From the NCBI GenBank assembly GCA_947478745.1, contig CANJXE010000008.1:1-35249 (forward strand): a DNA stretch of 35,249 nucleotides, in the 5' to 3' direction. The notes under the pieces are model-generated. The model made no database searches. It was given only the letters and a program-made list of their open reading frames with translations, and was not told the origin of the DNA. The translations under genes were made by a program, and so were the position numbers. Below are positions 15,098 through 32,431 of this stretch, piece after piece (the first letter of the stretch is position 1; each line of letters begins with the position of its first letter). This DNA comes from Actinomycetota bacterium. Its GTDB lineage: Bacteria > Actinomycetota > Thermoleophilia > Gaiellales > F1-60-MAGs149.

Positions 15098-15205
15098 CGA
15101 CGGGTTCCGGCAGTGCGCCGCGCGCGCATCGCGGCCTGACAGGCGTTGCGTTCAGGGCTCTTGCGGCGGGTGGGATCAGGGTGCGAACGGTCGGATGGAT
15201 TGCGC

Positions 15206-15211
15206 TAGAAT
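15206..15211 (+). promoter_or_regulatory. Possible -10 hexamer for the beta-helix gene pair
   Basis: TAGAAT lies 38 bases before ATG 15250, in the 152-base gap after the GntR gene. AGGAG at 15236-15240 is a good ribosome binding site for that ATG, which supports it over the upstream in-frame GTG at 15181. No -35 consensus was seen. Confidence 0.35.
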
Positions 15212-15249
15212 TTCTCGCGCCGCGTCCCCGTCGCCAGGAGTTGCCCGGA

Positions 15250-16518
15250 ATGCACCGTCGATCCCCCGAGCGCCGTGTCGGCCTTCGGCTCCTCCTGCTG
15301 ACCGCGCTCGCGATCGGCGCCCTGCTCGCCCCGGCGGCGGCCAACGCGCAGGCGACCCGCACGTGGATCTCCGGCGTCGGCGACGACGTCAATCCGTGCT
15401 CGCGCACCGCGCCCTGCAAGACGCTCGCGGGTGCGATCAGCAAGACCGCAGCCGGCGGCGAGATCAACGCGATCGACAGCGGCGGCTTCGGCGCCGTCAC
15501 AATCACCAAGTCGATCACGATCGATCTCTCCCCGCAGCTCGGCGGCGTCCTCGTCACCGGGACCAACGGCATCAGCGTCAATGCGGGCGCTGACGCCGAC
15601 GTCATCCTGCGCGGCATCAACTTCGTCGCGGTGCCACCGAGCACCCCTCAGCTCAGCGGCGTGCGCATCCTGTCTGCCCGTACCGTCCGCATCGAGAACA
15701 GCTCGTTCTCCGGATTCGGCTCGACGACGCCGTCGAACAAGGCAGCGAGCATCAGCGTGACACCCACGGCTGCCAACACCAGCGTCGTCGTCGACAACGT
15801 CGATATTCGCGTCGGCGTGCTGAATGGCATCGGCATCCTCGTCGATCCCGCGGCGACGTTCACGGCGACTGTCACGGTGCGCAACAGCACCATCCTCGGC
15901 TACTTCACGACCCCGGTGGGCACGCCGGCGACCTCTACGGGCACGACGGGCCTGCAGGTCGGGCTTGGTGGCACCGCGTGGCTCGTCAACTCGACGGTCT
16001 TCGGCAACTGCTTGGGACTGGTCACGACCGACCTCGACAACGTCGCCGACCACGGTGTGATCAACGCGTACACCAACTCGCAGGTCGTGGGCAACTGGAG
16101 CGACGGCACCCCGACGTCGATCATCGGGCAGCCTGATCCGCAGGGCCCGACCGGTGCCATCGGGGCGGGTGGCACCGCCGGCACCACTGGCGCCACCGGG
16201 GCGACCGGAACCTCGGGCACCTCGACGGCGCGCATCGTCGTCGAGTCCGTCAATCCCGCTCTCAAGGCCCGTGCCGGAGCCCGCGTCCGCTTCGCCTACG
16301 TCTCGACGGCCGCCGGCAGGAGCACGCTCACGGTCCGCAGCGGCAAGACCACCATCGCGACCATCACCGGCCGGGCGAAGATCGGCCACAACGCGCTGCG
16401 CTGGAACGGCAGGGTGCAGGGCAAGGCTGCCAAGCCGGGGACGTACCGCCTGGTACTCAAGGTGGCCGGCCCCGATGGGCGCGTGGCCACCACCAGCTCC
16501 GATCTGGTCCTGCGGTAG
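15250..16518 (+). CDS. Secreted right-handed beta-helix protein with collagen-like linker
   Basis: A 422-residue secreted protein. Residues 1-34 are a signal peptide ending in AAANAQA. The mature head RTWISGVGDDVNPCSRTAPC and the following GGEINAIDSGGFGAVTITKSI are the hallmark of a widespread family of parallel beta-helix proteins with a pectate-lyase-like fold. Strand-turn repeats run to about residue 295. Residues 299-325 are Gly-X-Y repeats rich in GAT/GTS triplets, a bacterial collagen-like linker. The C-terminal 90 residues (TLTVRSGKTTIATITG, LRWNGRVQGKAAKPGTYRL) look like a FlgD/Ig-type beta-sandwich. Function is unknown; a cell-surface adhesin or envelope protein is plausible. A paralogue follows after six bases. 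Confidence 0.8.
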   Translation: MHRRSPERRVGLRLLLLTALAIGALLAPAAANAQATRTWISGVGDDVNPCSRTAPCKTLAGAISKTAAGGEINAIDSGGFGAVTITKSITIDLSPQLGGVLVTGTNGISVNAGADADVILRGINFVAVPPSTPQLSGVRILSARTVRIENSSFSGFGSTTPSNKAASISVTPTAANTSVVVDNVDIRVGVLNGIGILVDPAATFTATVTVRNSTILGYFTTPVGTPATSTGTTGLQVGLGGTAWLVNSTVFGNCLGLVTTDLDNVADHGVINAYTNSQVVGNWSDGTPTSIIGQPDPQGPTGAIGAGGTAGTTGATGATGTSGTSTARIVVESVNPALKARAGARVRFAYVSTAAGRSTLTVRSGKTTIATITGRAKIGHNALRWNGRVQGKAAKPGTYRLVLKVAGPDGRVATTSSDLVLR

Positions 16519-18138: not shown

Positions 18139-18163
18139 CCGAACGGGCCAGTTTCGTCGGTCA
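18136..18163. terminator. Hairpin spanning both convergent stop codons
   Basis: The arms TGACCGA (18136-18142) and TCGGTCA (18157-18163) are perfect inverted repeats. The TGA of the OmpA-type gene begins the left arm and the minus-strand TGA of the aldehyde dehydrogenase begins the right arm. GAAC/GTTTC could extend the stem with a bulge. A bidirectional terminator fits the convergent arrangement, although no U-run is present. Confidence 0.5.
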
Positions 18164-19618
18164 GCTGACGGTGCCGTCGAGGATCTGCAGCGTCTTGAGG
18201 TCGGAGTAGAAGTCGAGCGCGTAGTCGCCGCCCTCGCGGCCGATGCCGCTGATGCCGGCCCCGCCGAAGGGCGCGGTCAGGTCGCGGACCAGGAAGCAGT
18301 TGACCCAGAGCGTGCCGGCGCGCACGGCGCGGCCGACGCGCTCGGCGCGCTTGGCGTTGCTCGTGAAGAGGATGCCGGACAGGCCGTACTCGGTCGAGTT
18401 GGCGAGCTCGATGGCCTCCGCTTCGGACGCGAACGTCTGCAGCGTCAGCACGGGGCCGAAGATCTCCTGCTGGACGACCTCGCTGTTGTTCGAGCGCGGG
18501 CGGATCAGCGTCTGCTCGTACCAGTTGCCGCCGATCTCCGGCTGCTTGCCGCCGCGCACGATCTCGTCGCCGTTGCGTCGCGCGCGGTCGACGAAGCCGG
18601 CCACGCGGGCCAGATGGTCGGGGTGGATCAGCGGGCTGATCGTGGTCGCGTCGTCGTGCGGGTCGCCGAGCACCTGGGCATCGACGTTGGCGTGGAAGCG
18701 CACGAGGAAGTCATCGACGATCGACTCGTCGATCAGCAGGCGCGTGCCCGACAGGCAGACCTGGCCGGCATCGTCGTACTGCAGGGCGGCCTTGGCTGCC
18801 GCGGCGTCGAGGTCGGCGTCCGCGAAGACGATGAAGGGGTTCTTGCCGCCGAGCTCGGCGGTGAACGGGACGATGTTGTCCGCTCCGGCGCGGCCGATGA
18901 GGCGCGCGGTCTCGGGCGAGCCGGTGAAGCTCAGGCGGCGCACGCGACGATCCGTCGTCAGTGCCGCGCCGACCTCCTCGCCGATGCCCTGCACGAGGTT
19001 GAAGACGCCGGGCGGGAAGCCCGCCTTGTCGACGAGGTCGAAGAGCAGCGAGCACGACAGCGGCGACCACTCAGCGGGCTTCAGCACGACGGTGCAGCCG
19101 GCCGCGAGCGCAGGCGCGCACTTCCACGTCGAGAGCATGAAGGGCGCGTTCCAGGGGGTGATCACGACGGCCGGGCCGCTCGGGTTGCGCACGACGCGGT
19201 TGGTCGTGCCGTTCGACTCCCAGACGCGCTCCTCGTAGGCGCAGGAGAGGTCGGCATAGGCACGGAAGTTGCGGGCGCCGCGGCCGATCACACGCGCCTT
19301 CAGCGAGCGCTCCAGCATCGCCATGTCCCAGCACTCGACCTCGGCGATGTGGTCCACGTTCGCGTCGATCAGGTCGGCCAGCCGGCGCAGGTACGGCGCG
19401 CGGCCGTGCGGGCCGAGGGCGGCCCAGGCGGGGAAGGCGCGTAGGGCGGCGCTCATCGCCGCGTTGGCGGTGGCGGCGTCGCCACGGCAGACCTCGGCCA
19501 GCAGCGACCCGTCGATCGGGGAGCGGTCCTTGAACGTCGTCGGGCTGCTCACACGGGCGCCGTCGATGTAGTGCTCCGGCGAGACGGTGTGGCCGTGGAC
19601 CTCGACGCGCGTGCTCAC
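18161..19618 (-). CDS. Aldehyde dehydrogenase (HpaE/betaine aldehyde dehydrogenase-like)
   Basis: A 485-residue NAD(P)-dependent aldehyde dehydrogenase, the last gene of a five-gene minus-strand operon. Catalytic residues are Asn157 (TPWNAPF), Glu255 (AELGGKNP) and Cys288 (GQVCLSGTR); the nucleotide-binding FTGSPETA is at 231-238. The overall look is that of the group containing 5-carboxymethyl-2-hydroxymuconate semialdehyde dehydrogenase, which fits the extradiol dioxygenase in the same operon. The GTG at 19618 is chosen because it overlaps the upstream stop (GTGA) and gives the expected family length; longer readings run into the neighbour. The exact aldehyde is unknown. Confidence 0.88.
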   Translation of the reverse strand: MSTRVEVHGHTVSPEHYIDGARVSSPTTFKDRSPIDGSLLAEVCRGDAATANAAMSAALRAFPAWAALGPHGRAPYLRRLADLIDANVDHIAEVECWDMAMLERSLKARVIGRGARNFRAYADLSCAYEERVWESNGTTNRVVRNPSGPAVVITPWNAPFMLSTWKCAPALAAGCTVVLKPAEWSPLSCSLLFDLVDKAGFPPGVFNLVQGIGEEVGAALTTDRRVRRLSFTGSPETARLIGRAGADNIVPFTAELGGKNPFIVFADADLDAAAAKAALQYDDAGQVCLSGTRLLIDESIVDDFLVRFHANVDAQVLGDPHDDATTISPLIHPDHLARVAGFVDRARRNGDEIVRGGKQPEIGGNWYEQTLIRPRSNNSEVVQQEIFGPVLTLQTFASEAEAIELANSTEYGLSGILFTSNAKRAERVGRAVRAGTLWVNCFLVRDLTAPFGGAGISGIGREGGDYALDFYSDLKTLQILDGTVS

Positions 19619-20424
19619 TGGCCGCTCCGCAGATCCGTGATCGTCTCCAGATCGTCGACGGAGTAGGCGAAGGTGAAGCGGTAGCCCTTGCCGACCCGCA
19701 CCGGGGCGAGGGCGATGTGCTCCTCGTTGGGGGCGTCGCCGAAGGTCAGCGTCGCAGCGCCCTCCCAGATCGCGGAGATCGAGCGGTCGAACGACTTGGC
19801 GCGCACGAGCTCGTCTACGGCGGGCGTGTCGTGCGTGCCCTCTGCGAGGCGCGGGAAGTGGCGGCGGTTGACGAGCGGCGGTGCGTTGTGCTCGGGCCCC
19901 GTCGTGCTCTCGCCCGTCAGCTTCACCGTCGCCTCGAGCAGGCGGCGATCGTTGGCGGCCATCGTGCCGCCGAACGTCGAGCCGGCGGCCACGGCGGGAT
20001 CGGCGAGCGTGCCGAGGCCGAACGTGCGCGTCATCCAGATCGAGCCGAGCTTCTTCGGGAAGCCCTGGATCCAGCCGCGCACGAGGGCGAAGTCGCGATC
20101 GACCCAGATGTACGGGCACGTCGTGACGTGCTCGTCGCCGAGCATGCCGTTGACGACGATGAACGCCTCCTTGTACTGGCTGCGTGCGGGATCGACCAGC
20201 TCGTTCTGGTCGGTCGTGCAGGACTGCCAGTCGGCGAAGATCACCGCGGCGCGGCCGGGGTCGTCCGCGTAGGGCTCGACGCCGGGCGGCAGTACGGCGG
20301 CGACGGCGGCCGGGTCGGCCCAGTAGTCCACGACGACGAAGTCGCCGACGTAGTGCCACGGCGGCGGCGGCACGAGGCTCGCGCGGCCGGTGGGGGATAG
20401 GGGGAGGCTGTAGCCCTTGCTCAT
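19615..20424 (-). CDS. Acetoacetate decarboxylase family protein
   Basis: A 269-residue protein of the acetoacetate decarboxylase (ADC) superfamily. The Schiff-base lysine region is preserved in RGWIQGFPKKLGSIW, as is the earlier PPGVEPYADDPGRAAVIFADWQS-type strand region around residues 50-75. Family members include true acetoacetate decarboxylases and also aldolase-dehydratase or hydro-lyase enzymes acting on pyruvate-derived compounds. In this ring-cleavage operon the latter role on a 2-oxo intermediate is attractive, but that is inference. The start ATG 20424 is preceded by GGAG. It lies 16 bases after the glutamine-synthetase-like gene and overlaps the aldehyde dehydrogenase start by four bases. 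Confidence 0.8.
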   Translation of the reverse strand: MSKGYSLPLSPTGRASLVPPPPWHYVGDFVVVDYWADPAAVAAVLPPGVEPYADDPGRAAVIFADWQSCTTDQNELVDPARSQYKEAFIVVNGMLGDEHVTTCPYIWVDRDFALVRGWIQGFPKKLGSIWMTRTFGLGTLADPAVAAGSTFGGTMAANDRRLLEATVKLTGESTTGPEHNAPPLVNRRHFPRLAEGTHDTPAVDELVRAKSFDRSISAIWEGAATLTFGDAPNEEHIALAPVRVGKGYRFTFAYSVDDLETITDLRSGQ

Positions 20425-20440
20425 GTGATCTCCTGGCGAC

Positions 20441-21745
20441 TCAGACGTGGTCGGCGTACTCGGTCCATTCCCATTCGGTGACGACGCGCGCGAAGCGGTG
20501 CAGCTCGCGCCGCTTGACGTCGACGACGGTGCGCACCATCCGCTCGCCGAGCGCACCGGCGATGATCGGGTCGGCCTCGAGCGCGTCGAGCGCTGTGCCG
20601 AGATCGGCGGGCAGCGCGACGGGCTCGCCGGGCACGAGCCCGCGCTCGATGCCGTCGCGGCCGGCGGCGAGCGCGGCGGCCACCAGCAGGTACGGGTTGG
20701 CGGAGGCGTCGCCGATGCGCAGCTCCACGCGCGTCGCGGCGCCGTTCTGGGGCGGTACGCGCAGGTACGCGGTGCGATCGTCGCCGCCCATGTCCGCCTG
20801 CAGCGGGGCGAGGCCGATGTTGGCGTTGGCGAGCCGCTTGAAGGAGTTGATCGTCGGGCAGGCAATCGCGGTCAGGGCCGGGGCGTGCTCGATCAGCCCC
20901 GCGGCGAAGGCGAGGCCGAGCTCGGACAGGCCGCCGCTCGGCGTTGCGAAGGCGTTGGCGGCGCCGGCCCACAGCGAGAGGTGGACGTGATGGCTCGAGC
21001 CCTCGGCATCGGCGAAGGGCTTGCCCATGAAGTTGGCGCGCAGGCCGTGGCGTCCCGCCGTCTCGCGCACGACCTCCTCGAACAGGAATGCGCGGTCGGT
21101 CGCGTCGAGGACCTCGCCGTGGCTCAGGTTCATCTCGAACTGGCCGGGCGAGACCTCGCGGTGCGCTGCGGTGACGCCGAGGCCCATCGCGACGCACGCA
21201 TCCTGCATGGCGCGCAGCACGCCGTCGGGGTCGGCGCGATAGCCGGAGGTGTAGGCGAGGCCCACGCCGGGCGAGTAGCGCCCGACGGACGGTCCGGCGC
21301 CGGGCTCGAGCAGGTAGAACTCGGGCTCTGAGGCGGAGACGGCGCGGTAGCCGAGGGTGTGGAGCTTCGCGATCTCAGCCTTCAGCAGCGATCGCGCGCA
21401 GAGGCCGGACGGCGCGTGATCGGGCTCGACGACGTCGGCCAGGAGCCACGCGGTGTGCGCGTCCCAGGGGACCGGTCGCGCCGTCGTCGCATCGGGGATC
21501 GCGTGCGTGTCGGGCAGGCCGCTGCCGCCGGGGTGCGGCGCGTCCATCAGCGGCTCGCCGTCGAGCCCCTCGACGAGGCTCGCCTCGCAGTAGCCGATGC
21601 CGCCCGCGAGGTCCGGCAGGGAGGACAGGGGGAAGTCCTTGCTGCGCGCCCGGCCGTGCGGATCCGCATGGATCACGCGCACGCGCGAGACGCCCTGCGC
21701 GGCGAGCGTGTCGCGCAGGGTGGTGAGGACGGCGTCGTCGGACAT
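20441..21745 (-). CDS. Glutamine synthetase-like gamma-glutamyl-amide ligase
   Basis: A 434-residue member of the glutamine synthetase superfamily. Metal and substrate motifs are intact: Glu140 and Glu142 (SEPEFYLL), Glu197 and Glu204 (REVSPGQFEMNL), His253 (GSSHHVHLSL), NSFKRL, the DRTAYLRVP phosphate region, and Glu341/Arg343 (RVELRIGD). The tyrosine adenylylation site loop of housekeeping GlnA is not evident, and the N-terminal domain is short. The closest functional models are PuuA, IpuC and anilide-forming enzymes, which gamma-glutamylate an amine to start its breakdown. Its place in a catabolic operon argues against ammonia assimilation. It starts three bases after the dioxygenase stop. 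Substrate unknown. Confidence 0.82.
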   Translation of the reverse strand: MSDDAVLTTLRDTLAAQGVSRVRVIHADPHGRARSKDFPLSSLPDLAGGIGYCEASLVEGLDGEPLMDAPHPGGSGLPDTHAIPDATTARPVPWDAHTAWLLADVVEPDHAPSGLCARSLLKAEIAKLHTLGYRAVSASEPEFYLLEPGAGPSVGRYSPGVGLAYTSGYRADPDGVLRAMQDACVAMGLGVTAAHREVSPGQFEMNLSHGEVLDATDRAFLFEEVVRETAGRHGLRANFMGKPFADAEGSSHHVHLSLWAGAANAFATPSGGLSELGLAFAAGLIEHAPALTAIACPTINSFKRLANANIGLAPLQADMGGDDRTAYLRVPPQNGAATRVELRIGDASANPYLLVAAALAAGRDGIERGLVPGEPVALPADLGTALDALEADPIIAGALGERMVRTVVDVKRRELHRFARVVTEWEWTEYADHV

Positions 21746-21748
21746 GGT

Positions 21749-22681
21749 CTAGCCGGCGAGCGGCGGGAGCGGCGTGCCCTGCGCCTCGAGCTGGTGGCGC
21801 TCGGAGTGCACGGCCGCATCGTCGAAGCGGAAGTACGAGCGCGGCGGCAGGATGCCCCAGGTGTTCGAGCCCCAGGCGTCGTCGGCCCACTCGCGCGGCG
21901 TGTGCGGCATCCGCAGGATCTCCATGTCGCAGTAGAGCTCGACGAAGAGGTTCTCCTCGGGGATGCGCACGTAGGCGCAGAGGTTGCGCGCCAGGTTGTG
22001 ATGCACCGGTCCCCAGCCGAGCCAGCGGCCATGGCGGCCGAGGTGGTCGAGGAACACCCGCAGCTGGCCCCAGTCGACGATGTCGAAGGCGATGTGGTGG
22101 AAGTGCGTCGGCCCCTTGCCGACGATCGCCATCTGGTGATGCTCGGGGTGCACGTGGAACCAGATGCCGGCCTCGCCGAGCTTGTCGGACACCTGCATGC
22201 CCATCACGTCCGTGTAGAACGCGGTCGTCTCGGCGATGTTCGGCGCGAGGATGTTCACGTGACCGAGGCGGCGCGGGTGCATGCCGAACGGCGGCTCGTT
22301 GCGGCGACCGGCGTCCGGCCAGAGCTCGATCGCCGTGCGCTCGCGGTGCGCGAGCAGCTGCAGGCCTTGGCCCGAGGAGTCGACAAACCGCAGCGAGCCG
22401 TCGGGCTCGCGCGAGTAGCTCACGTTGCACGCATCGAGGTGCCTGGCGGCATCGTCGAGCGAGCAGTCGGCGGCGAGCTCCCACGCGCTGTGATCATGGT
22501 CGGGCTCGGCGTCCTGCACGAGCTCGAGGCAGTAGTCCTCCGAGTCGGCGCGCAGCAGCGAGCGGCCGGGCTCGCGGGCGACGACCTCGAGCCCGAATTG
22601 CACCGACCAGCGCGCGGTCGCCTCGTCGATGTCCAGCACGCGCAGGCACGCGTGATGCAGGTCATGGAGTCGGATGCTCAT
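21749..22681 (-). CDS. VOC-family extradiol ring-cleavage dioxygenase
   Basis: A 310-residue type I extradiol dioxygenase with two vicinal-oxygen-chelate modules, roughly residues 5-112 and 135-255. The Fe/Mn ligands can be assigned in the second module: His141 (RRLGHVNILAPN), His195 or His196 (HFHHIAFDI) and Glu248 (NLFVELYCD). Spacing and the C-terminal tail (WGILPPRSYF) recall homoprotocatechuate 2,3-dioxygenases and related catechol dioxygenases. It probably opens a catechol-like ring next to a hydroxyl group. It lies one base after the FAH-family gene and three bases before the glutamine-synthetase-like gene, so it is the second gene of the operon. Confidence 0.85.
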   Translation of the reverse strand: MSIRLHDLHHACLRVLDIDEATARWSVQFGLEVVAREPGRSLLRADSEDYCLELVQDAEPDHDHSAWELAADCSLDDAARHLDACNVSYSREPDGSLRFVDSSGQGLQLLAHRERTAIELWPDAGRRNEPPFGMHPRRLGHVNILAPNIAETTAFYTDVMGMQVSDKLGEAGIWFHVHPEHHQMAIVGKGPTHFHHIAFDIVDWGQLRVFLDHLGRHGRWLGWGPVHHNLARNLCAYVRIPEENLFVELYCDMEILRMPHTPREWADDAWGSNTWGILPPRSYFRFDDAAVHSERHQLEAQGTPLPPLAG

Positions 22682-22682
22682 G

Positions 22683-23540
22683 TCATACCTCCCCGGCGGC
22701 GACGCGCCGCTCGGCTTCGTCCTCGGGAATCGCGAGCGCCACGTGCAGCGTGTTCGCGGAGGTCTCGGGCTGATCGCCCGGGCCGCTCAGATCCACATCC
22801 CAATCCACGACGGTGTTGCGCAGTGCGGGAAAACCCGCGATCTCGACCTCGACGACGTCGCCGACGTCCATCGGGCGCGAGTTGGCGGGCGTGCCGGTCA
22901 GCACGACGTCGCCCGGCACCAGCGTGATCACGCGGCACAGGTCGGCGAGCTGGTACCGGTAGTCCCAGATCAGGTCGTCCTGGTCGCCGCGCTGGACCAC
23001 CTCGCCGTTGATGCGCGTGGTCAGCGTGAAGCCCTCGTCGGGCGTCCACTGGTCGGCGGTCACCATCGCCGGGCCGATCGGCAGGAAGCCGTCCTGGCCC
23101 TTGACGCGCAGCATCGAGCCGCGGTCGGCGTGGCGGAAGTCGTGGAGGCCGACGTCGTTGGCGGGGGCGAAGCCGGCGACGTACTCGTGCACGTGCCCGG
23201 GCTTGACGCCCTTCATCTCGCGGCCGATCACGACGGCGATCTCGCCCTCGTAGTTGAGGAAGCGCGTGCCGTGCGGACGGCGCAGCTCGCCGAGGTGGCC
23301 GTTGAGCGTGGTCGGCGGCTTCATGAAGTACGACGGCTCGGGCGGCGTCTTGGCCTGGTACTCGGTCAGGCGCGACTGGTACGTCAGGTGCACGGCCATG
23401 ATCTTGCTCGGCTCGACCGGGGCGAGCCAGTGGGCGCCCTCGGATGCGAGCTCGGTGCCGCTGTCGAGGCGGATGACGCCGTCGTCCTTGAGCTCGCCCC
23501 ACTGGGGCTCGCCGGCGTGGAGGATGCGGACGCGCAGCAT
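22683..23540 (-). CDS. Fumarylacetoacetate hydrolase family protein
   Basis: A 285-residue FAH-family enzyme, a single-domain member of the group that includes HpaG-type isomerase/decarboxylases and acylpyruvate hydrolases. The metal ligands are Glu98 and Glu100 (NYEGEIAVVIG) and Asp129 (ANDVGLHDF), with Lys147 in the VKGQDGFLPIGP loop. The C-terminal VVLTGTPANSRPMDVGDVVEVEI is typical. Such enzymes act on the products of extradiol cleavage, which fits the next gene. It is first in the operon. The ATG at 23540 overlaps the stop of a 14-codon upstream ORF, and its promoter region carries the operator at 23649-23663. Confidence 0.87.
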   Translation of the reverse strand: MLRVRILHAGEPQWGELKDDGVIRLDSGTELASEGAHWLAPVEPSKIMAVHLTYQSRLTEYQAKTPPEPSYFMKPPTTLNGHLGELRRPHGTRFLNYEGEIAVVIGREMKGVKPGHVHEYVAGFAPANDVGLHDFRHADRGSMLRVKGQDGFLPIGPAMVTADQWTPDEGFTLTTRINGEVVQRGDQDDLIWDYRYQLADLCRVITLVPGDVVLTGTPANSRPMDVGDVVEVEIAGFPALRNTVVDWDVDLSGPGDQPETSANTLHVALAIPEDEAERRVAAGEV

Positions 23541-23584
23541 CAGTTCGCCTCGTCCGTCGTGGTCGCCCTGCGTGTGCGGTTCAT
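23540..23584 (-). CDS. 14-codon upstream ORF coupled to the FAH-family gene
   Basis: On the minus strand an ATG at 23584, five bases after a strong GGGAGGGG ribosome binding site, opens a short frame encoding MNRTRRATTTDEAN. Its TGA overlaps the ATG of the FAH-family gene (TGATG). The FAH ATG has only a weak Shine-Dalgarno sequence of its own (GAGGCG), so ribosomes ending this mini-ORF could reinitiate there. The peptide has no recognised attenuator pattern (no codon run). It could still be chance. Confidence 0.35.
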   Translation of the reverse strand: MNRTRRATTTDEAN

Positions 23585-23648
23585 CTGCCCCTCCCGGCGG
23601 GGATCCTAGGTGCAATGCGTCGGGAGCAGTGAGCGACCCGCCGAATTC

Positions 23649-23663
23649 TGGATATTGTATCCA
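23649..23663. promoter_or_regulatory. Operator upstream of the FAH operon, shared with hpaB-like promoter
   Basis: TGGATA-TTG-TATCCA is a perfect inverted repeat between the divergent permease and FAH-family genes. Read on the minus strand the wider site is CAGATTGGATAC followed by AATATCCA, identical in 12 consecutive bases plus ATCCA to the site at 30922. The minus-strand TACAAT inside it could be the -10 of the FAH operon. A GntR/FCD-type repressor would suit the size and symmetry. The rest of the 248-base gap shows no other clear element. Confidence 0.65.
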
Positions 23664-23788
23664 ATCTGACGCGTGAAGGGAACCCCTTCCGCCATGATGC
23701 CTGCACGCTGGTAGCCGAGGAGATCGCGGGAGTTCCGCGAACGTGCTGCCAGCATCACGCCCGGAGGGGCTGACCAAGGGAGAGCACT

Positions 23789-25228
23789 ATGGGCGCGCAA
23801 GCGCAGGGGGGCGAGAAGCTCGGTAAGGGCAATCTCAGCCTGCTCGATGTCATCGCGCAGTCGATCGGGTTCATCGGACCCGTATTCGCGGCTGCGTTCT
23901 TCATTCCGACGATCGTCGGCGCGTCGCTGAACGGCAAGGGTGCCGGACTCGCGAGTCCCGTGTCGATCATCATCGCCATGGTCGGGATGTGCGCGGTGGC
24001 GTGGATCATCTCGCGCTTCGCCCGTCGCATCCATGCCGCGGGCTCGCTGTACGACTACGTCACCGAGGCCTTCGGCGAGCGCATCGGCTTCGTCGGCGGC
24101 TGGGTCTACTACGGCGGCGTGATCGCCCTGACGCTGGCCATCGGCCTGGCGTTCGGCGGGTTCCTGCACGACACGCTGTTCTTCAACCACGACATCGACA
24201 TCGCGTGGTACTGGCTGTCGATCGCCTTCTGGGTTGCAGCTGCACTGATGATGCTGCGCGGCGTGGCCATCTCCACGCGCGTGCAGCTCGTGCTCGGCCT
24301 CGGCTCGTTCCTGATCATCCTCGTCTTCTCGATCTGGGTGATCTTCAAGGTCGGTGGTGACGGCGGCCTCAGCACCGCGCCGTTCAATCCCAGCTCGTCC
24401 GACCAGGGCTGGAACGGCATCTTCTTCGGAATTCTCTACGCCGTGATCATGTTCATCGGCTTCGAGAGCTCGGCGAACCTCGCCGAGGAGAGCACCAACC
24501 CGCGCAAGCACCTGCCGCTGGCGATCTTCGGCTCGTGCATCGCCGTCGGCGTGTTCTACGTGATCGTCACGTACGCCCAGGCGGTCGGCTTCGGCCTCTC
24601 CGTGCAGGCGTGGCTCGAGGCGTTCCCGCCGCTCTACGCGCTGGCGGCCGACCCGAACTACGGCAGCACCGGCTTCGGCGAGCTGATCCAGTGGCTCGTC
24701 GTGATCGACATCGCCGCCGTCGGCCTCGGCACGGCAACCGGCTCGAGCCGCGGCATCTTCGCCCTGGCACGTGACGGCCGCCTGCCCGCGGTCCTCGCGA
24801 AGATGCACCCCAAGTACAAGACGCCGTACGTGGCGTCGACGTTCCTGGCCATCGTCTCGATCGTCCTGATCGCGATCGTCGCCTGGACGAACGGCCTGAT
24901 GAGCGTGGGCGAGATGGACCCGGGCCAGTGGTTCCCGATGTTCAACTGGCTCGCGACCTTCGGCGGCTTCATGATGGTCGCCGTCTACATCGCGATCTGC
25001 GTGGCGGCCTTCAAGGGCATGCCGGGCGAGTCGAGCGGCCTGCTCGCACTGGCCGGCATTGTCGGCGGTCTCGTCTCGATCGGTGCGATCTACGGCGTGA
25101 TCGTCCAGTACGCCGACATCCCGGCCTACAACCGCGTGTGGTGGATCGCGGTCCTGTGGCTCGTCGGCGGCGTCATCGTCATGGTGATCCTCAACCAGAT
25201 GGGCCGTCTGCGCAACCGGACGGTCTAG
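23789..25228 (+). CDS. APC family amino acid/amine permease
   Basis: A 479-residue integral membrane transporter of the amino acid-polyamine-organocation superfamily with about 12 hydrophobic segments. The first helix has the unwound substrate-binding stretch IAQSIGFIGPVFAAAFF, and helix 6 carries GFESSANLAEESTNPRKHLP, the best-known signature of this superfamily. AAGGGAGAG before ATG 23789 is the ribosome binding site. It is divergent from the ring-cleavage operon and shares its regulatory gap, so it probably imports the pathway substrate, perhaps an amino acid, amine or other nitrogenous aromatic. A strong terminator follows. Confidence 0.9.
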   Translation: MGAQAQGGEKLGKGNLSLLDVIAQSIGFIGPVFAAAFFIPTIVGASLNGKGAGLASPVSIIIAMVGMCAVAWIISRFARRIHAAGSLYDYVTEAFGERIGFVGGWVYYGGVIALTLAIGLAFGGFLHDTLFFNHDIDIAWYWLSIAFWVAAALMMLRGVAISTRVQLVLGLGSFLIILVFSIWVIFKVGGDGGLSTAPFNPSSSDQGWNGIFFGILYAVIMFIGFESSANLAEESTNPRKHLPLAIFGSCIAVGVFYVIVTYAQAVGFGLSVQAWLEAFPPLYALAADPNYGSTGFGELIQWLVVIDIAAVGLGTATGSSRGIFALARDGRLPAVLAKMHPKYKTPYVASTFLAIVSIVLIAIVAWTNGLMSVGEMDPGQWFPMFNWLATFGGFMMVAVYIAICVAAFKGMPGESSGLLALAGIVGGLVSIGAIYGVIVQYADIPAYNRVWWIAVLWLVGGVIVMVILNQMGRLRNRTV

Positions 25229-25337: not shown

Positions 25338-26537
25338 ATGGCAGTGCAGGCAGACCCCAGAATCGACCCGGAGCGTCGCGCGCGGCTGCTCGCCATCGTC
25401 GACGAGCTCGGCCCCGCCTTCCGCGAGCGCGCGCCCAAGTACGACCGTGAGGCGTCCTTCCCATTCGAGAACTTCGACGACCTCTACGACGCCGGCTTCT
25501 ACGGCCTTTGCATCCCGACCCGCTACGGCGGTCTCGGCGCGAGCTTCAACGACTACATGCACATCGGCGCGGCGATTGGCGCGTACTGCCCGATGACCGC
25601 GCTGACGTTCAACATGCACACGCAGACGGTCCTCTGGACCGGCGTCGCCGCCGACGACCTCGACATGAGCGACGAGCACCGCGCCGCACACGAGGCGCTG
25701 CGCACCGAGCTCTACCGGCGCATCATCGAGGAGAAGGCGCTGCAGTCGCAGCCGCTGAGCGAGGGCATCGCCCAGGGCGCCACGCGCGGCTTCGCGACGA
25801 CGGCGGAGAAGGTCGACGGCGGCTACCGGGTCAACGGTCGCAAGATCTTCGCCTCGCTGGCCGGCGCGGCCACCGACTACAACATCACGTGCGTCGAGAC
25901 GAGCGAGGACGAGATCCTCTTCCTCGCGATCGCGGCCGATGACCCGGGCGTCGAGATCGTCGGCGACTGGGATCCGCTCGGCATGCGCGGCACCGTCTCG
26001 CGGACGCTGCTCTTCAAGGATGCCTTCGCCCCCGACGAGGCCGTGCTGCTGCCGCCGGGCATCTACAACCAGCTCGCCGAGCGCTGGCCGTACGTCTACA
26101 TGACGCTGACGCCCGCCTACATGGGGCTGTCGAAGGCCGTCATCGATTTCGTGCGCGGCTACATGTCGTCGCAGGCGCCTCCCGGCATCACCTCGCGGCG
26201 TGACGTTCCGCAGAAGCAGCAGGGCTGGGCGGAGCTTCAGATCATGTACGAGCGCAGCCGCGCCCTGTTCGACAAGGTCGTCGACGAGGCGCGCGTCGAC
26301 CCGACGCCCGACATGGTGGCGCGCGCGCTGGCCGCGAGCTTCACGACCATGGAGACGGCGCCCGAGCTTGCCTCGCTCGCGATCCGCACCTGCGGCGGCA
26401 TGTCGCTGCTCAAGGAGCTGCGGCTCGAGCAGATGTACCGCGACGCCCGCTGCGGCAGCACGATGCTGCCGTGGAGCGCGGAGATCTGCCTGCACCGCCT
26501 CGGCCGACACGGGATCTTCCCCGATGACGCCGAGTAG
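25338..26537 (+). CDS. Acyl-CoA dehydrogenase-like flavoprotein
   Basis: A 399-residue flavoprotein of the acyl-CoA dehydrogenase superfamily. It has the N-terminal helical domain, a middle beta domain (GGYRVNGRKIFASLAGAATDYN; DPLGMRGTVSRTLLF) and a C-terminal helical domain ending YRDARCGSTMLPWSAEICLHRLG. The superfamily includes both fatty-acid enzymes and flavin-dependent monooxygenases of the HsaA/DszC type. No thioesterase, CoA ligase or enoyl-CoA hydratase is nearby, so a hydroxylase role in the ring-degradation pathway is possible. GGGAGG at 25326-25331 supports the ATG. It overlaps the alpha/beta hydrolase gene by 14 bases. A TACGCT hexamer at 25303-25308 is a weak -10 candidate. Confidence 0.83.
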   Translation: MAVQADPRIDPERRARLLAIVDELGPAFRERAPKYDREASFPFENFDDLYDAGFYGLCIPTRYGGLGASFNDYMHIGAAIGAYCPMTALTFNMHTQTVLWTGVAADDLDMSDEHRAAHEALRTELYRRIIEEKALQSQPLSEGIAQGATRGFATTAEKVDGGYRVNGRKIFASLAGAATDYNITCVETSEDEILFLAIAADDPGVEIVGDWDPLGMRGTVSRTLLFKDAFAPDEAVLLPPGIYNQLAERWPYVYMTLTPAYMGLSKAVIDFVRGYMSSQAPPGITSRRDVPQKQQGWAELQIMYERSRALFDKVVDEARVDPTPDMVARALAASFTTMETAPELASLAIRTCGGMSLLKELRLEQMYRDARCGSTMLPWSAEICLHRLGRHGIFPDDAE

Positions 26538-27327
26538 CCTGCTGCGCGACGTCGACGAGTTGCCGATCGCCTGGCGCGAGGCGGGGGAGGGCGCGACCGT
26601 CCTGTTCCTGCACGGGCTCGGCATGACCCGCACGGGCTGGGATGCGCAGCTGCTCGCGCTCGCCGACGGCTACCGCTGCGTGGCGTGGGACCTGCCGGGC
26701 TACGGCGCGTCCCTGCCGCTCCCCGACTTCTCGCTCGAGGCCGCGGCGGACGCCGCAGCGATGCTGATCGACCGCCTCGGCGGCAGCGCGCACGTCGTCG
26801 GCCTGTCGATGGGCGGCATGGTCGCGCTGCACCTCGCGCTGCGCCACCCCGAGTGCGTGCGCTCGCTGTCGCTGGTCGATACCAGCCCGGCCTTCGGCAT
26901 GGACGGCACCGACCCCGAGGCGTGGCGGGCGGCGCGGCTGGCACCGCTCGAGGCGGGGGCCGAGGTGGCGGACTTCGCCGAGCCCGTCCTGCGCGGCGTG
27001 ATGGCGCCCGATCCCGATCCGCGCGCGGTCGAGGCCGCGGTGCAGTCGATGCTGCGCGTACCGATCAGCGGCCTGATGCAGACCATCGCCGCGCTGCCCG
27101 CCCACGACGTGCGCGCGCGGCTCGGCGCGATCACCGCCCCGACGCTCGTCGTGGTCGGCGAGCTGGATGAGGAGACGCCGCCGGCCTACGCCGAGGCGCT
27201 CGCCAGCGGGATTCCCGGTGCGCGCCTCGAGGTCATCCCCGGCGCCGGGCACCTGACGCCGTTCGAGGCGCCCGCCGCGCTCAGCCGGCTCCTGCGCGAC
27301 CATGTGGACATGGTGGAGGCCGTCTGA
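26524..27327 (+). CDS. Alpha/beta hydrolase
   Basis: A 267-residue alpha/beta-hydrolase-fold enzyme. The oxyanion segment is FLHGLGMTRTGW, the nucleophile elbow GLSMGGM carries the Ser, the acid is probably Asp in VVGELDEETPP, and the His lies in GAGHLTPFE. In general form it resembles 3-oxoadipate enol-lactonase-type hydrolases. It starts inside the end of the flavoprotein gene, and its TGA overlaps the ATG of the NicX-like gene. In nicotinate degradation the NicX product is deformylased by NicD, also an alpha/beta hydrolase of similar size, so a NicD-like role is a reasonable context-based guess. Confidence 0.85.
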   Translation: MTPSSLLRDVDELPIAWREAGEGATVLFLHGLGMTRTGWDAQLLALADGYRCVAWDLPGYGASLPLPDFSLEAAADAAAMLIDRLGGSAHVVGLSMGGMVALHLALRHPECVRSLSLVDTSPAFGMDGTDPEAWRAARLAPLEAGAEVADFAEPVLRGVMAPDPDPRAVEAAVQSMLRVPISGLMQTIAALPAHDVRARLGAITAPTLVVVGELDEETPPAYAEALASGIPGARLEVIPGAGHLTPFEAPAALSRLLRDHVDMVEAV

Positions 27328-28352
27328 TGGAGCACCGCACGCTCGATGTCTTCCGCCGCGCGCTCGTCGCCAGCGGCCTGACCGCCGGCGAGGTCGTCGC
27401 CGTGCTGAGCGAGTCGACGAGCCGCACTGCGCTCGTCGATGCTGCACGGCTCGCGGCCGAGGATCTCGGCGGTCGCGTCGTCGACGTGCGCATGCCGACT
27501 CCAGCAAACCCCGGCCCCGTCGCGATCCGCTCGACCGGCTCGAGCATCGCGCTGCAGGGCAACCCCGCCGCCGTCGCCGCGCTCTGCGCCGCCGATCTCG
27601 TGCTCGACTGCACGGTCGAGGGCCTGCTCCACGCGCCCGAGCTGCCGACCATCCTCAGCGCGGGCGCCCGCGTCCTGATGATCCCGAGCGAGGATCCCGA
27701 GGCCTTCGAGCGCTGGGCGCCCGACGCTGGGCAGCTCAAGGCCCGCGTCCTGGCCGGGCTCGAGCGGCTGCGCGCCGCCACCGAGATGCGCGTCACGTCG
27801 TCGGCGGGCACCGATCTCAAGGTCCGTCTGACCGGCGCATTCACGGCCGGCTCGTGGGGCGCCACAGACGGTCCCGGCACGGTCGCGCACTGGCCCGGCG
27901 GCCTCGTGGTCGCGTTCCCCGCCGCCAACTCCGTCGATGGCACGCTGGTGCTGGCCCCCGGCGACGTCAACCTCACCTTCAAGCAGTACCTCCGCGATCC
28001 CGTGCGGCTGACGATCGAGGGCGACCGCATCGTCGACATCGACGGCCGCAACGTTGACGCCGACCTGCTGCGCTCGTACCTCGCCGCCTTCGACGAGGAG
28101 GAGGCCTACTCGGTCAGCCACGTCGGCTGGGGCATGAACCCGGCCGCCCGCTGGGACGCGCTGATGATGATGGACAAGCGCGAGACCAACGGCATCGAGC
28201 TGCGTGCCTTCGAGGGCAACTTCCTCTTCTCGACCGGCGCCAACGAGAACGCCGGCCGCTTCACGCGCGGCCACTTCGACTTCCCGATGCGCCGCTGCAC
28301 CGTCATGCTCGACGGCGAGACGGTCGTCAACGCCGGCCGCGTCGTCGAGTAG
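27327..28352 (+). CDS. 2,5-dihydroxypyridine 5,6-dioxygenase (NicX)-like protein of the M29 aminopeptidase fold
   Basis: A 341-residue protein that automatic annotation may call a leucyl aminopeptidase. From memory of the Pseudomonas putida NicX sequence, its second half is closely alignable: GTLVLAPGD, the SHVGWGMNPAARW segment, RAFEGNFLFSTGANE and HFDFPMRRC. The NicX iron ligands (His265, His318, Asp320) correspond to His265, His316 and Asp318 here. NicX opens the 2,5-dihydroxypyridine ring to N-formylmaleamate. Conservation of the three ligands argues for an iron dioxygenase rather than a peptidase, which would need other metal ligands; the exact ring substrate is uncertain. It is the third gene of a coupled set and ends before a hairpin repeat. 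Confidence 0.75.
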   Translation: MEHRTLDVFRRALVASGLTAGEVVAVLSESTSRTALVDAARLAAEDLGGRVVDVRMPTPANPGPVAIRSTGSSIALQGNPAAVAALCAADLVLDCTVEGLLHAPELPTILSAGARVLMIPSEDPEAFERWAPDAGQLKARVLAGLERLRAATEMRVTSSAGTDLKVRLTGAFTAGSWGATDGPGTVAHWPGGLVVAFPAANSVDGTLVLAPGDVNLTFKQYLRDPVRLTIEGDRIVDIDGRNVDADLLRSYLAAFDEEEAYSVSHVGWGMNPAARWDALMMMDKRETNGIELRAFEGNFLFSTGANENAGRFTRGHFDFPMRRCTVMLDGETVVNAGRVVE

Positions 28353-28370: not shown

Positions 28371-28449
28371 CGTTCGTGAAACAACGGGGCCAGACCCCTC
28401 CGTTTCACGAACGTTGAAACGGAGGGGTCTGGCCCCGTTGTTTCACGAG
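28371..28449. repeat. Paired REP-like hairpins forming a 34-bp perfect inverted repeat
   Basis: Arms 28374-28407 and 28415-28448 are perfect reverse complements of 34 bases around a 7-base loop. Each arm is itself a small palindromic unit built on GGGGCCAGACCCC: the left unit has 12-base arms CGTTCGTGAAAC (28371-28382) and GTTTCACGAACG (28402-28413). The layout is like two head-to-head REP units. It lies between convergent genes and could stop transcription from both sides. The right end supplies the last serine codon and the TGA of recX (28443-28448). Confidence 0.85.
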
Positions 28450-29234: not shown

Positions 29235-29241
29235 GTCGTTC

Positions 29242-29338
29242 TGGACCCGGGTCCAAACGTGCACGATTTCGGTCAATTTGGACCCGGGTCCAAACGTGCA
29301 CGATTTCGGTCAATGTGGACCCGGGTCCAGATTGACCG
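29242..29338. repeat. 37-bp tandem repeat with palindromic TGGACCCGGGTCCA cores
   Basis: Two 37-base units (29242-29278 and 29279-29315) differ only in their last base, and a third core begins at 29316. Each core TGGACCCGGGTCCA (29242-29255, 29279-29292, 29316-29329) is a perfect 14-base palindrome. The third is embedded in a 32-base near-perfect palindrome, 29307-29338, flanked by CGGTCAAT and ATTGACCG. It fills much of the 158-base gap between the AsnC-like stop and recX. Confidence 0.9.
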
Positions 29339-29380
29339 CAAAGCGACCGCTGCGGTGCCGGACCGGCTACGGGCGTGTGC

Positions 29381-29666: not shown

Positions 29667-29672
29667 ATTCTA
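29667..29672 (-). promoter_or_regulatory. -10 hexamer for leaderless AsnC-like gene
   Basis: On the minus strand TAGAAT lies seven bases before ATG 29659. Its first three bases are also the TAG stop of the amidase gene. No Shine-Dalgarno sequence is present. Confidence 0.4.
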
Positions 29673-30857
29673 GCCCTCGCCCCACAGCTCGGCCTTGGCG
29701 ATCTCCCACGCCTCGCCGGGATCGCCCGGCATGGCGGGGATGTAGCGCGCGCCCTCGTGCGGGGTGAAGGGCGGCGTCCACGAGCCACGCTGCTGCAGGC
29801 GCTTGATGTTGCCGCGGTAGATCTCGTCCACCTCGGCGTGCGACGCCGGCTCGTTCTCCAGCCACAGGTTCTTGGGATGGATCGGCTCGTCGTACATGTC
29901 CTTGAAGAGCTCGGTCCGCAGATCCTTCATCCAGTTGGAGTTGAGGTTCATCGCGCGGAAGTTGCGCAGCGCCTCGATGTCGATGATGCCGGCGCAGAAG
30001 CTGTTCATGCCGCTCTGCGAGAGGCCAAGCACCTGGCCCTGGAAGTCGACGACGTGGCCGTTGCCGCCGCCGATGTCGTAGGGCTGCTCCATCTTCGGGT
30101 GCACGTAGACCGGGCCGACGTTCGGGCACACCATGTACAGCGAGTTGAAGTGCGCGTGGGCGCGGTTCTGCAGGAGCCACGTGCCGCCGGGGTCGGGGCC
30201 GTTCTGCGTCATCGGCACGGCCTCGCTTGGCCGGTAGACGACCTCGGCACCGTTGAAGGCCAGCGCGCGGATCGCCTCGGGGTACTCGCCGTCGGAGCAG
30301 CAGATCGTGCCGACGTTGCCGATGTCCTTGGTCTTCAGCACGGGGTAGAACGCGTCGAGCCCGTCGCCGAACACCTCGATCCAGCGGTCGTGGACGTCGT
30401 GCGGAGTGGTGGAGCGCTCACGGCACCAGAGGTGGTTCTTGGCCGCCTTGTGGACGATGCGCCCGTTGGGGCCGATCACGAACAGCATGTTGAAGAAGCG
30501 GTCGTCCATCACCTCGGGCAGGCGCGCCTTGCACTGGACCACGATGTACGTGCCGTACTGCTTGGCGAGCTTGCCGAGCCGCTGCGTCTCCGGGCCGGGC
30601 AGGTCGATGAACAGGTCGCGCGCGGCGGTGGTGTGGGGGATGTCGAAGATCTCGTCGGTGAAGCCGGTCAGCGCCCCCTCGGCGAGGGCGATCAGCTTGA
30701 CGGGCATGTTGATGCCGATGATCGAGACCGCGGCGTGGATCGCGTCCTCGATGACGTCGAGGTTGCGCGCGATCTCGCTGCGCTTCGAGATGCCCCGAAC
30801 GACCGTCGAGAGCCCCACTGCCATGTAGGGCGCTACGGGCCCTGTCTGCTTCGCCAT
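29670..30857 (-). CDS. Nitrilase-superfamily amidase (AmiE/AmiF-like)
   Basis: A 395-residue carbon-nitrogen hydrolase. The catalytic Glu-Lys-Cys triad can be placed by comparison with aliphatic amidase AmiE: Glu60 (LAEGALTG), Lys140 (IVHKAAKNHLWC) and Cys187 (CCSDGEYPE). The segment WLLQNRAHAHFNSLYMV also follows the amidase/formamidase pattern rather than that of true nitrilases. The C-terminal 80 residues extend beyond the usual domain. AGGAGG lies just before ATG 30857. It is divergent from the HpaB-like monooxygenase and shares its 107-base control region, so it probably hydrolyses a pathway amide (hydroxyphenylacetamide, maleamate or formamide are candidates). Substrate not determined. 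Confidence 0.83.
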   Translation of the reverse strand: MAKQTGPVAPYMAVGLSTVVRGISKRSEIARNLDVIEDAIHAAVSIIGINMPVKLIALAEGALTGFTDEIFDIPHTTAARDLFIDLPGPETQRLGKLAKQYGTYIVVQCKARLPEVMDDRFFNMLFVIGPNGRIVHKAAKNHLWCRERSTTPHDVHDRWIEVFGDGLDAFYPVLKTKDIGNVGTICCSDGEYPEAIRALAFNGAEVVYRPSEAVPMTQNGPDPGGTWLLQNRAHAHFNSLYMVCPNVGPVYVHPKMEQPYDIGGGNGHVVDFQGQVLGLSQSGMNSFCAGIIDIEALRNFRAMNLNSNWMKDLRTELFKDMYDEPIHPKNLWLENEPASHAEVDEIYRGNIKRLQQRGSWTPPFTPHEGARYIPAMPGDPGEAWEIAKAELWGEG

Positions 30858-30905
30858 GCGTTCCTCCTGAGGCTGCAAGCGTACGGCACGTACGGGGTTG
30901 TCTCC

Positions 30906-30934
30906 TTGACACCGTCCGACGCAGATTGGATACT
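30906..30934 (+). promoter_or_regulatory. Sigma70-type promoter of the HpaB-like gene
   Basis: A perfect -35 TTGACA (30906-30911) is separated by exactly 17 bases from GATACT (30929-30934). Transcription would start near 30941, leaving a leader of about 24 bases that carries GGAGG (30950-30954) before ATG 30965. The -10 lies inside the operator palindrome. Confidence 0.75.
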
Positions 30935-30945
30935 GGATCCAATCT
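30923..30945. promoter_or_regulatory. Operator over the -10 region of the HpaB-like gene
   Basis: AGATTGGAT, five bases, ATCCAATCT is a perfect 9-base inverted repeat that covers the -10 hexamer and likely start point. With the preceding C it matches the minus-strand sequence upstream of the FAH operon as CAGATTGGATACNNNATCCA, in the same orientation relative to the gene served. A bound repressor would block RNA polymerase. Confidence 0.72.
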
Positions 30946-30964
30946 CTCTGGAGGATCCTTTCCG

Positions 30965-32431
30965 ATGGCTGCAACCGAGACCAGTTCCAACGTGGCGGCG
31001 CGCACCGGCGCGCAGTTCCTCGAGGGCCTGCGCAACGACCGCGATCGCGAGATCTGGATCGGCGGCGAGTGCGTCACCAACCCGCTCGACCACGAGCTGC
31101 TGCGCCCGGGTGCCGAGGCCGTCGCGCGCGTCTACGACACGCAGCACGAGCACGCCGAGGTCTGCCTCGCGCCGAATCCCGACGACGGCAAGCTGGTCAA
31201 CCGCACGCACCTGATCCCCCGCAGCCGCGAGGATCTGATGAAGCGTCGCGCCTCGATGGAGATCATCGCGGCGGCGACGGGCGGGATGATGGGCCGCGTC
31301 CCCGACTACCTCAACGTCACGTTCGCCTGCTTCTCCGGGGCCTCCGAGGTGTGGGCGCGACGCGGCAACGAGCGCGGCGCCGAGAACATCGTCAACTACC
31401 AGCGGCTGATGCGCGATCTGGATCTCTCGACGACGCACGCGATCATGAATCCGGTCGCCGACCGCTCGAAGTCCGAGACCGAGCAGCTCGGCGGCGAGAT
31501 CGCGCTGCACAAGGTGGGCGAGTCGAGCGAGGGCATCATCGTGCGCGGCGCGCGCATGCTGGCCACGCTGGCGCCGTTCTCCGACGAGATCTCGATCTAT
31601 CCGGGCTCCGACCTGAAGCCGGGCGACGAGGCCTACGCGCTGGCCTTCGCGATCCCGATGAGCACGCCGGGCCTGCGCTTCATCTGCCGCGACTCGTTCT
31701 CGAAGCCGAAGAGCACGTTCGACTACCCGCTCAGCGCGCGCTTCGACGAGATGGACGCGGTCGTCATCTTCGACGACGTCCTCGTGCCCCACGATCGCGT
31801 GTTCCTGGACGGCGACATCGTCGGCTACTCCGAGGTCATCACCGACTCGGGCTGGCGCGGCCACATCATGCACCAGGCCTTCACGCGGGCCTACGTCAAG
31901 CTGATGTTCGCGTTCGGGCTCGGCCACGCCATGGCGCAGACGACCGGCGTCGTGCGCTTCGATCACATCCAGGAGAAGCTCGGCCAGATCTGGAACATGA
32001 CGGAGCTGACGCGCTCGGCGCTGGTCGCCGCAGAGGCCGACTCGTACCTCGACGATCACGGCGTCTGGTACCCCAACGACCGCCCGCTGATGGCGCTGCG
32101 CGGCGAGATGCCGAAGTGGCTGCCCCGCACCCACGAGCTGCTCCAGCTGATCGGTGGCGGCTCGTTCATGGCGACGCCCTCGGAGGCCGACTTCAACTCG
32201 GCGATCCGCGGCGACATCGAGAAGTACTTCCAGTCGGCCGGTGGCGACGCCGAGCATCGTGTGCGCCTGTTCCGCCTGGCCTGGGACTTCATCGGCTCCG
32301 ACCTCGGCGGCCGCAGCGAGCTGTACGAGCGCTTCTACCTGTCGGACTCGTGGCGGATGACGCAGCTGGCCTACCGGACGGCGGACACGACGTTCGCCGA
32401 GTCGCTGGTCGATCAGTTCATGCACGACTAA
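30965..32431 (+). CDS. 4-hydroxyphenylacetate 3-hydroxylase (HpaB) family flavin monooxygenase
   Basis: A 488-residue member of the HpaB family, the oxygenase component of two-component flavin-dependent phenol ortho-hydroxylases. The start region RTGAQFLEGLRNDREIWIGG (without one duplicated Arg-Asp step) is the family hallmark; the middle has FSGASEVWARRGNERGAENI and the C-terminal helical domain includes HQAFTRAYVKLMFAFGLGHA and IGGGSFMATPSEADF. It would make the catechol that the VOC dioxygenase opens. No flavin reductase (HpaC) is in the window, so reduced flavin must come from elsewhere. The real start is ATG 30965 with GGAGG before it. Relatives hydroxylate chlorophenols, tyrosine derivatives or other phenols, so the substrate is open. 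Confidence 0.88.
   Translation: MAATETSSNVAARTGAQFLEGLRNDRDREIWIGGECVTNPLDHELLRPGAEAVARVYDTQHEHAEVCLAPNPDDGKLVNRTHLIPRSREDLMKRRASMEIIAAATGGMMGRVPDYLNVTFACFSGASEVWARRGNERGAENIVNYQRLMRDLDLSTTHAIMNPVADRSKSETEQLGGEIALHKVGESSEGIIVRGARMLATLAPFSDEISIYPGSDLKPGDEAYALAFAIPMSTPGLRFICRDSFSKPKSTFDYPLSARFDEMDAVVIFDDVLVPHDRVFLDGDIVGYSEVITDSGWRGHIMHQAFTRAYVKLMFAFGLGHAMAQTTGVVRFDHIQEKLGQIWNMTELTRSALVAAEADSYLDDHGVWYPNDRPLMALRGEMPKWLPRTHELLQLIGGGSFMATPSEADFNSAIRGDIEKYFQSAGGDAEHRVRLFRLAWDFIGSDLGGRSELYERFYLSDSWRMTQLAYRTADTTFAESLVDQFMHD

Follow-up and report, generated by a model that had tools for sequence, protein, structure and literature searches.

We analyzed a 35,249-nucleotide stretch of DNA from an actinomycetotal bacterium (contig CANJXE010000008.1; hereafter, the window) and a gene on its forward strand at positions 27327 to 28352. 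Judged from its sequence, the 341-residue product is a full-length homologue of NicX, the 2,5-dihydroxypyridine (DHP) dioxygenase, and it belongs to a new NicX subfamily in which the iron ligands are kept and a residue that binds DHP, Glu177, is lost. The gene lies beside those of an alpha/beta hydrolase and of a flavoprotein with the acyl-CoA dehydrogenase (ACAD) fold, in a three-gene breakdown module that is widespread and, it appears, undescribed and that is linked in Proteobacteria to kynurenine and anthraniloyl-CoA-type genes. We propose, tentatively and with somewhat less than even confidence, that the protein is a mononuclear non-heme Fe(II) ring-cleaving dioxygenase with a substrate other than DHP, working in a three-enzyme upper pathway that in most hosts probably leads toward anthranilate. 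The three genes are as follows.

25338 to 26537, forward strand: ACAD-fold flavoprotein of 399 residues, probably the oxygenase of a two-component flavin monooxygenase (Pfam Acyl-CoA_dh_N/M/1; best PDB match 5gj7, E = 3.4e-43).
26524 to 27327, forward strand: alpha/beta hydrolase of 267 residues, probable deformylase/amidase or C-C hydrolase (Pfam Abhydrolase_6, E = 1.7e-28).
27327 to 28352, forward strand: predicted ring-cleaving dioxygenase with non-heme Fe(II), from a distinct NicX-like subfamily (NicX homology and fold; H265/S302/H316/D318; Ser176 for Glu177).

A preliminary description of the window had placed a 341-residue protein at this open reading frame and read it as a NicX-type enzyme in an aminopeptidase-like gene, aligning with NicX over its second half. 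The frame and the homology stood, and the similarity proved to extend over the whole length. In a phmmer search of the PDB, Pseudomonas putida NicX (7CN3) was the sole convincing match (E = 3.7e-61), with query residues 7 to 340 aligned to chain residues 10 to 342. An AlphaFold2 model computed from an alignment of 34 relatives reached a mean pLDDT of 93.4, and Foldseek ranked 7CN3 first for it (TM score, 0.93; E = 1e-40), with M29 peptidases at TM scores of 0.59 to 0.68. By this model, the gene, whose counterparts in relatives carry an aminopeptidase annotation, codes for a protein structurally close to NicX. That the protein is a true M29 metallo-aminopeptidase is scarcely credible. Such an identity would explain a weak Pfam M29 match and the annotation of the relatives in loci L062 and L063 as "peptidase M29," but the match scores 20.6 bits against a curated cut-off of 27, the peptidase AmpT reaches a TM score of 0.68 versus 0.93 for NicX, and the NicX iron set is complete; we therefore rejected it. 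Compared with the 91%-identical relative in L002, the gene differs at 28, 16, and 127 sites in the first, second, and third codon positions, respectively; this concentration at third positions is what purifying selection on a conserved protein would produce. We also observed NicX-family genes under the labels "leucyl aminopeptidase" and "peptidase M29," including some within complete nic clusters (L066:6980-8002, L068:6980-8011, and L062:8986-10038).

In NicX, iron is bound by His265, Ser302, His318, and Asp320; Glu177 hydrogen-bonds N1 and O1 of DHP, with Glu177 and His189 both contacting N1/O1; Leu104 and His105 are gating residues; and the enzyme is described as strictly DHP specific (PMC7910607). 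All four ligands are kept in the window protein, as His265, Ser302, His316, and Asp318, and they are conserved in 59 of 60 close relatives in the alignment. The H...HxD residues recognized earlier at 265, 316, and 318 are thus joined by a fourth ligand, Ser302, that had been omitted. Equivalents of His105 and His189, both substrate contacts in NicX, are likewise present in the window protein and in 60/60 relatives. The Glu177 position differs: it is Ser176 in the window protein and S, V, N, or T in every one of the 60 close relatives. NicX proteins encoded in nicCDEF clusters keep Glu there, with Gln in L097, and Gln likewise occurs in a divergent copy from Embleya (L065). The replacement of Glu177 throughout the subfamily argues against DHP as the substrate and would fit a compound without the 2-pyridone group, in line with the suggestion, made in the preliminary description, of a possible new substrate.

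The arrangement of the three genes agrees with the coupling described earlier. The stop codon of the hydrolase gene overlaps the NicX-like start (TGATG, 27325 to 27329), an overlap kept in L002 and L003 and found as ATGA in L004, and the hydrolase start (26524) precedes the last base of the ACAD-like gene (26537), so that these two genes also overlap. Orthologues of the ACAD-like protein share an invariant YRD[AS]R..G..MLP motif. At the position of MCAD Glu376, located through a motif that we take to mark the catalytic glutamate, 105 of 106 orthologues have Leu and one has a gap, so that the glutamate expected of an acyl-CoA dehydrogenase was not found there; the comparison covers the MCAD-type site, and IVD-type enzymes have an alternative Glu site. 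Given this Leu and the flavin reductase gene present in many proteobacterial loci, the protein is most naturally read as part of a two-component monooxygenase, probably as its oxygenase component. In the hydrolase, Ser95 and His243 are conserved in 108/108 sequences. We rejected it as a NicD orthologue, since it is 21.8% identical to Azospirillum NicD (E = 2e-5), and the NicX/NicD-like pair proposed earlier holds as an analogy only.

In a tree of 50 sequences, the subfamily formed a 39-row clade with support of 100/100, apart from the NicX sequences of nic clusters; the deeper rows L065, L077, and L095 sit on long branches, and their placement is uncertain. As the preliminary description had stated, the window yielded no homologue of nicC, nicE, or nicF, and the set of nicC, nicD, nicE, and nicF partners expected around a functional NicX was not found there. 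Such partners stand beside L064, L066, and L067 and, in part, beside L068 and L096 to L098. Elsewhere in the window's genome, two isochorismatase-family genes are 31% and 40% identical to NicF (tblastn). An ordinary DHP dioxygenase serving nicotinate- or hydroxypyridine-type breakdown, toward which the earlier account leaned, would explain the full-length homology, the shared iron site, and the retention of His105 and His189. However, Glu177 is lost subfamily-wide, the clade is separate, the nic partners are missing from the window, the hydrolase is not NicD-like, and other members of the same order hold true NicX with nicCDEF-type neighbors (L096 and L097), which together make this explanation quite improbable. 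N-heterocycle breakdown of the pyridine/nicotinate type is likewise unlikely, given the absence of Glu177, the separate clade, and the anthranilate/tryptophan-type neighborhood described below. One genome of this order (G321) carries, about 15 kb from its nic-type NicX (L096), a more divergent NicX-like gene (L077) in which Ala takes the place of the ligand Ser302.

Most retrieved loci, many of which come from metagenome-assembled genomes (MAGs), carry all three genes (NicX-like, hydrolase, and ACAD-like) side by side, in varying order. The hosts belong to Actinomycetota and to Alpha-, Beta-, and Gammaproteobacteria; in L047, L054, L087, L172, and L176, the NicX-like gene is alone or one partner is missing. 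Proteobacterial loci add a flavin reductase, a MarR regulator, and a CoA ligase, the last of which is often absent from the minimal module in Actinomycetota. In all 16 fetched Burkholderiaceae loci (L178 to L193), the kynurenine operon TDO-KynU-KynB is directly adjacent to the module, divergent from MarR-flavin reductase and NicX-hydrolase-ACAD-CoA ligase; several of these loci are from Cupriavidus, and the 16 are not independent events. A gene of the anthraniloyl-CoA monooxygenase (ACMR) type (PRK08255) lies near the module in L017, L045, L050, L170, L171, L175, and L194, in some cases with a short-chain dehydrogenase/reductase (SDR) and an enoyl-CoA hydratase. The module of Aminobacter (L062) and that of a Paracoccaceae MAG (L057) instead adjoin genes for a gentisate 1,2-dioxygenase and an FAA hydrolase. 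Within L062, the gene at 14686-15864, annotated as "LysR substrate-binding," matches the L045 flavin reductase with 31% identity, possibly through mis-annotation or fusion.

The subfamily was present in 59 of 350 sampled Burkholderiaceae genomes and 26 of 385 sampled alphaproteobacterial genomes. Cross-tabulated by hand, ACMR was found in 59/59 module genomes versus 119/291 others in Burkholderiaceae (Fisher test, 2e-20) and in 16/22 versus 45/330 in Alphaproteobacteria (4e-9), with phylogeny ignored in both tests. Kynureninase scored above the cut-off in 34 of 48 mixed module genomes. Searches of the literature on homarine, indole-3-acetate (iac/iad), and M29-containing degradation clusters turned up no account of the module.

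The lower pathways vary by lineage (ACMR; gentisate dioxygenase with FAA; HpaB/VOC/FAA/aldehyde dehydrogenase) around a fixed trio, which suggests that the product of the trio is a shared aromatic intermediate, and in Proteobacteria anthranilate fits best. In the pathway that we propose, the ACAD-fold protein, with a flavin reductase, would hydroxylate an N-heteroaromatic compound; the NicX-like enzyme would cut the C(OH)-C(H) bond beside the ring nitrogen, as NicX does, leaving a carboxylate and an N-formyl group; and the hydrolase would take off the formyl group. The most likely product in most hosts would be anthranilate or a derivative, in which case the substrate would be a benzo-fused N-heterocycle. 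The simplest candidate would be unsubstituted indole, converted to indoxyl and then N-formylanthranilate, and a 4-quinolone would be another. In the window organism, the lower pathway would have to be of the HpaB/VOC type. It is conceivable, though somewhat less likely than our general proposal, that this amounts to a widespread, uncharacterised oxidative route. A benzo-fused N-heterocycle would be opened by an Fe(II) enzyme of the NicX fold, such as an indoxyl or 3-hydroxyquinolone 2,3-dioxygenase, and the resulting N-formyl aromatic acid would be converted to anthranilate by the hydrolase.

The same neighborhoods could be read in the opposite direction, with anthranilate degraded by the module: the CoA ligase would form anthraniloyl-CoA, the ACAD-fold monooxygenase would hydroxylate C5, the NicX-like enzyme would cleave 5-hydroxyanthranilate or its CoA thioester beside the hydroxyl, and the hydrolase would finish the process. 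The kynurenine operon adjoins the module, the CoA ligase gene lies in the operon of the module, and 5-hydroxyanthraniloyl-CoA is reported as an ACMR product under NADH limitation (PMC3534580). A carboxyl or thioester at the place of DHP N1 would also explain the loss of Glu177 in favor of a small residue. Nevertheless, ACMR, a complete alternative for anthraniloyl-CoA, co-occurs nearly always in Proteobacteria and would make such a module redundant, the ligase is often missing in Actinomycetota, and the gentisate dioxygenase in L062 and L057 would imply that a substrate with one ring is cleaved twice. Overall, we regard anthranilate degradation as unlikely.

In the window's genus, the module is flanked by the genes listed below, except that for the window's glutamine synthetase (GS)-family gene no counterpart was detected in the same-genus loci.

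18161 to 19576, reverse strand: HpaE-like aldehyde dehydrogenase, the 3' part of a long frame at 18161-20359 (TIGR02299, 497 bits; cut-off, 638).
19615 to 20865, reverse strand: acetoacetate-decarboxylase-like (MppR-like) protein, with homology in about the last 260 residues of the frame (TIGR04460, 225 bits; 40% to an ADC-family protein of L012).
20441 to 21745, reverse strand: GS-family protein, its gene flanked by those of the MppR-like and VOC proteins (closest solved structure, glutamate-methylamine ligase).
21749 to 22681, reverse strand: VOC-type extradiol dioxygenase, catechol 2,3-dioxygenase/HpaD-like (TIGR03211, E = 6e-27; TIGR02295, E = 2e-23; both under cut-off).
22683 to 23777, reverse strand: FAA-hydrolase family protein, HpaG-like, with its real start probably internal to the frame (Pfam, E = 3e-53; HpaG-C, 186 bits).
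23789 to 25228, forward strand: APC-family amino-acid/amine permease, upstream of the module and conserved in the genus (Pfam AA_permease_2, E = 2.9e-32; synteny with L002, L003, and L090 to L094).
29670 to 30974, reverse strand: carbon-nitrogen (nitrilase-family) hydrolase, conserved in the genus, with its real start probably internal to the frame (Pfam CN_hydrolase, E = 1.4e-26).
30926 to 32431, forward strand: HpaB-type flavin hydroxylase, conserved in the genus (Pfam HpaB_N, E = 1.5e-89; TIGR02309, 405.6 bits, cut-off 480; PDB 2yyg, E = 2.2e-98).

The aldehyde dehydrogenase, MppR-like, VOC, and FAA genes (18161-23777) and HpaB (30926-32431) resemble a meta-cleavage pathway, with scores under the Hpa equivalog cut-offs. 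The GS-family and nitrilase genes were rejected as fixed members of the module, since the window and L062 copies are 26 to 29% identical and GS is undetected in congeners. Two repeats were also observed. A perfect 34-nucleotide inverted repeat with a 7-nucleotide loop (28374-28448) separates the NicX-like gene from a convergent recX-like gene; its core was found, among the 197 fetched loci, only in those of the window's genome, and it is possibly a bidirectional terminator or a small mobile repeat. Upstream of the recX-like gene, three tandem 37-nucleotide units (29235-29345) each contain the palindrome TGGACCCGGGTCCA, a count reached in 0 of 100 shuffles.

These flanking genes bear on one more explanation, namely, a NicX-fold dioxygenase acting on another hydroxylated aromatic unrelated to anthranilate, such as an amine-derived ring, with the anthranilate links reflecting shared synteny. 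Both the window and L062/L063 have a GS-family protein and an APC permease next to the module, HpaB/VOC/FAA genes occur in the window genus, and the window genome has no kynureninase or ACMR match. However, the ACMR association holds in two classes, the kynurenine operon is adjacent in 16/16 Burkholderiaceae loci, and the GS and permease proteins of the window and L062 are only 26 to 28% identical, which leaves this explanation somewhat unlikely. Several observations also weigh against a route toward anthranilate. The window yielded no flavin reductase gene, and the similarity of the ACAD-like protein to the indole monooxygenase XiaF is weak (E = 5e-7). The best matches of the CoA ligase are to feruloyl/acyl-CoA synthetases, ahead of anthranilate-CoA ligase, and its nearest solved structures are unspecific. 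PRK08255 also covers salicylyl-CoA 5-hydroxylase, the Fisher tests are blind to phylogeny, and the adjacency of the kynurenine operon within one family may represent inherited synteny. Since neither kynureninase nor ACMR was matched in the window genome, or in the congener G399, the anthranilate link comes from Proteobacteria and is an extrapolation for this organism. No assayed subfamily member was found in the open literature (subscription journals lay outside the coverage).

If confirmed, a sister subfamily with an intact iron site and a replaced Glu would mean that the NicX dioxygenase fold handles another ring, and the route to anthranilate, if true, would add both a reaction new to this fold and an upper pathway not described before. 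The module would also offer a testable gene set for a ring-cleavage pathway linked to tryptophan/indole-type aromatics, now concealed under "peptidase M29" and "leucyl aminopeptidase" labels.

Compared with known systems, the subfamily shares with NicX of P. putida KT2440 (7CN3, 7CNT, and 7CUP) the fold, the full-length alignment, the four iron ligands, His105, and His189, at about 38 to 41% identity. It differs in the replaced Glu177, in a two-residue insertion before the LLH motif (TVEGLLH), in "AHWPG" where NicX has "DHWPS," and in its operon partners. The hydrolase resembles the nic-cluster deformylase NicD in its alpha/beta fold, its Ser-His dyad, and its position next to a NicX-type gene, without being orthologous. 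In quinaldine degradation, the ring is cleaved by a cofactor-free alpha/beta-fold dioxygenase, unlike a NicX-fold iron enzyme. In Arthrobacter Rue61a, the upper pathway for quinaldine ends in anthranilate, which passes to an anthraniloyl-CoA ligase and ACMR (PMC3534580); like the proposed module, it leads from an N-heterocycle to anthranilate and then CoA activation. The indole iif/ind cluster of Acinetobacter and Cupriavidus also has a two-component flavin oxygenase and anthranilate as its end product (PMC6221969), but its IifA is a cofactor-independent oxygenase, its IifB is an SDR, and no NicX-like gene is described in it. Finally, KpiA/B/C of Arthrobacter IN13, which act on 4-hydroxypyridine, combine a clustered flavin monooxygenase, atypical dioxygenase, and alpha/beta hydrolase as the module does; the kpi cluster was rejected as a match, since its dioxygenase, KpiC, has the amidohydrolase fold.

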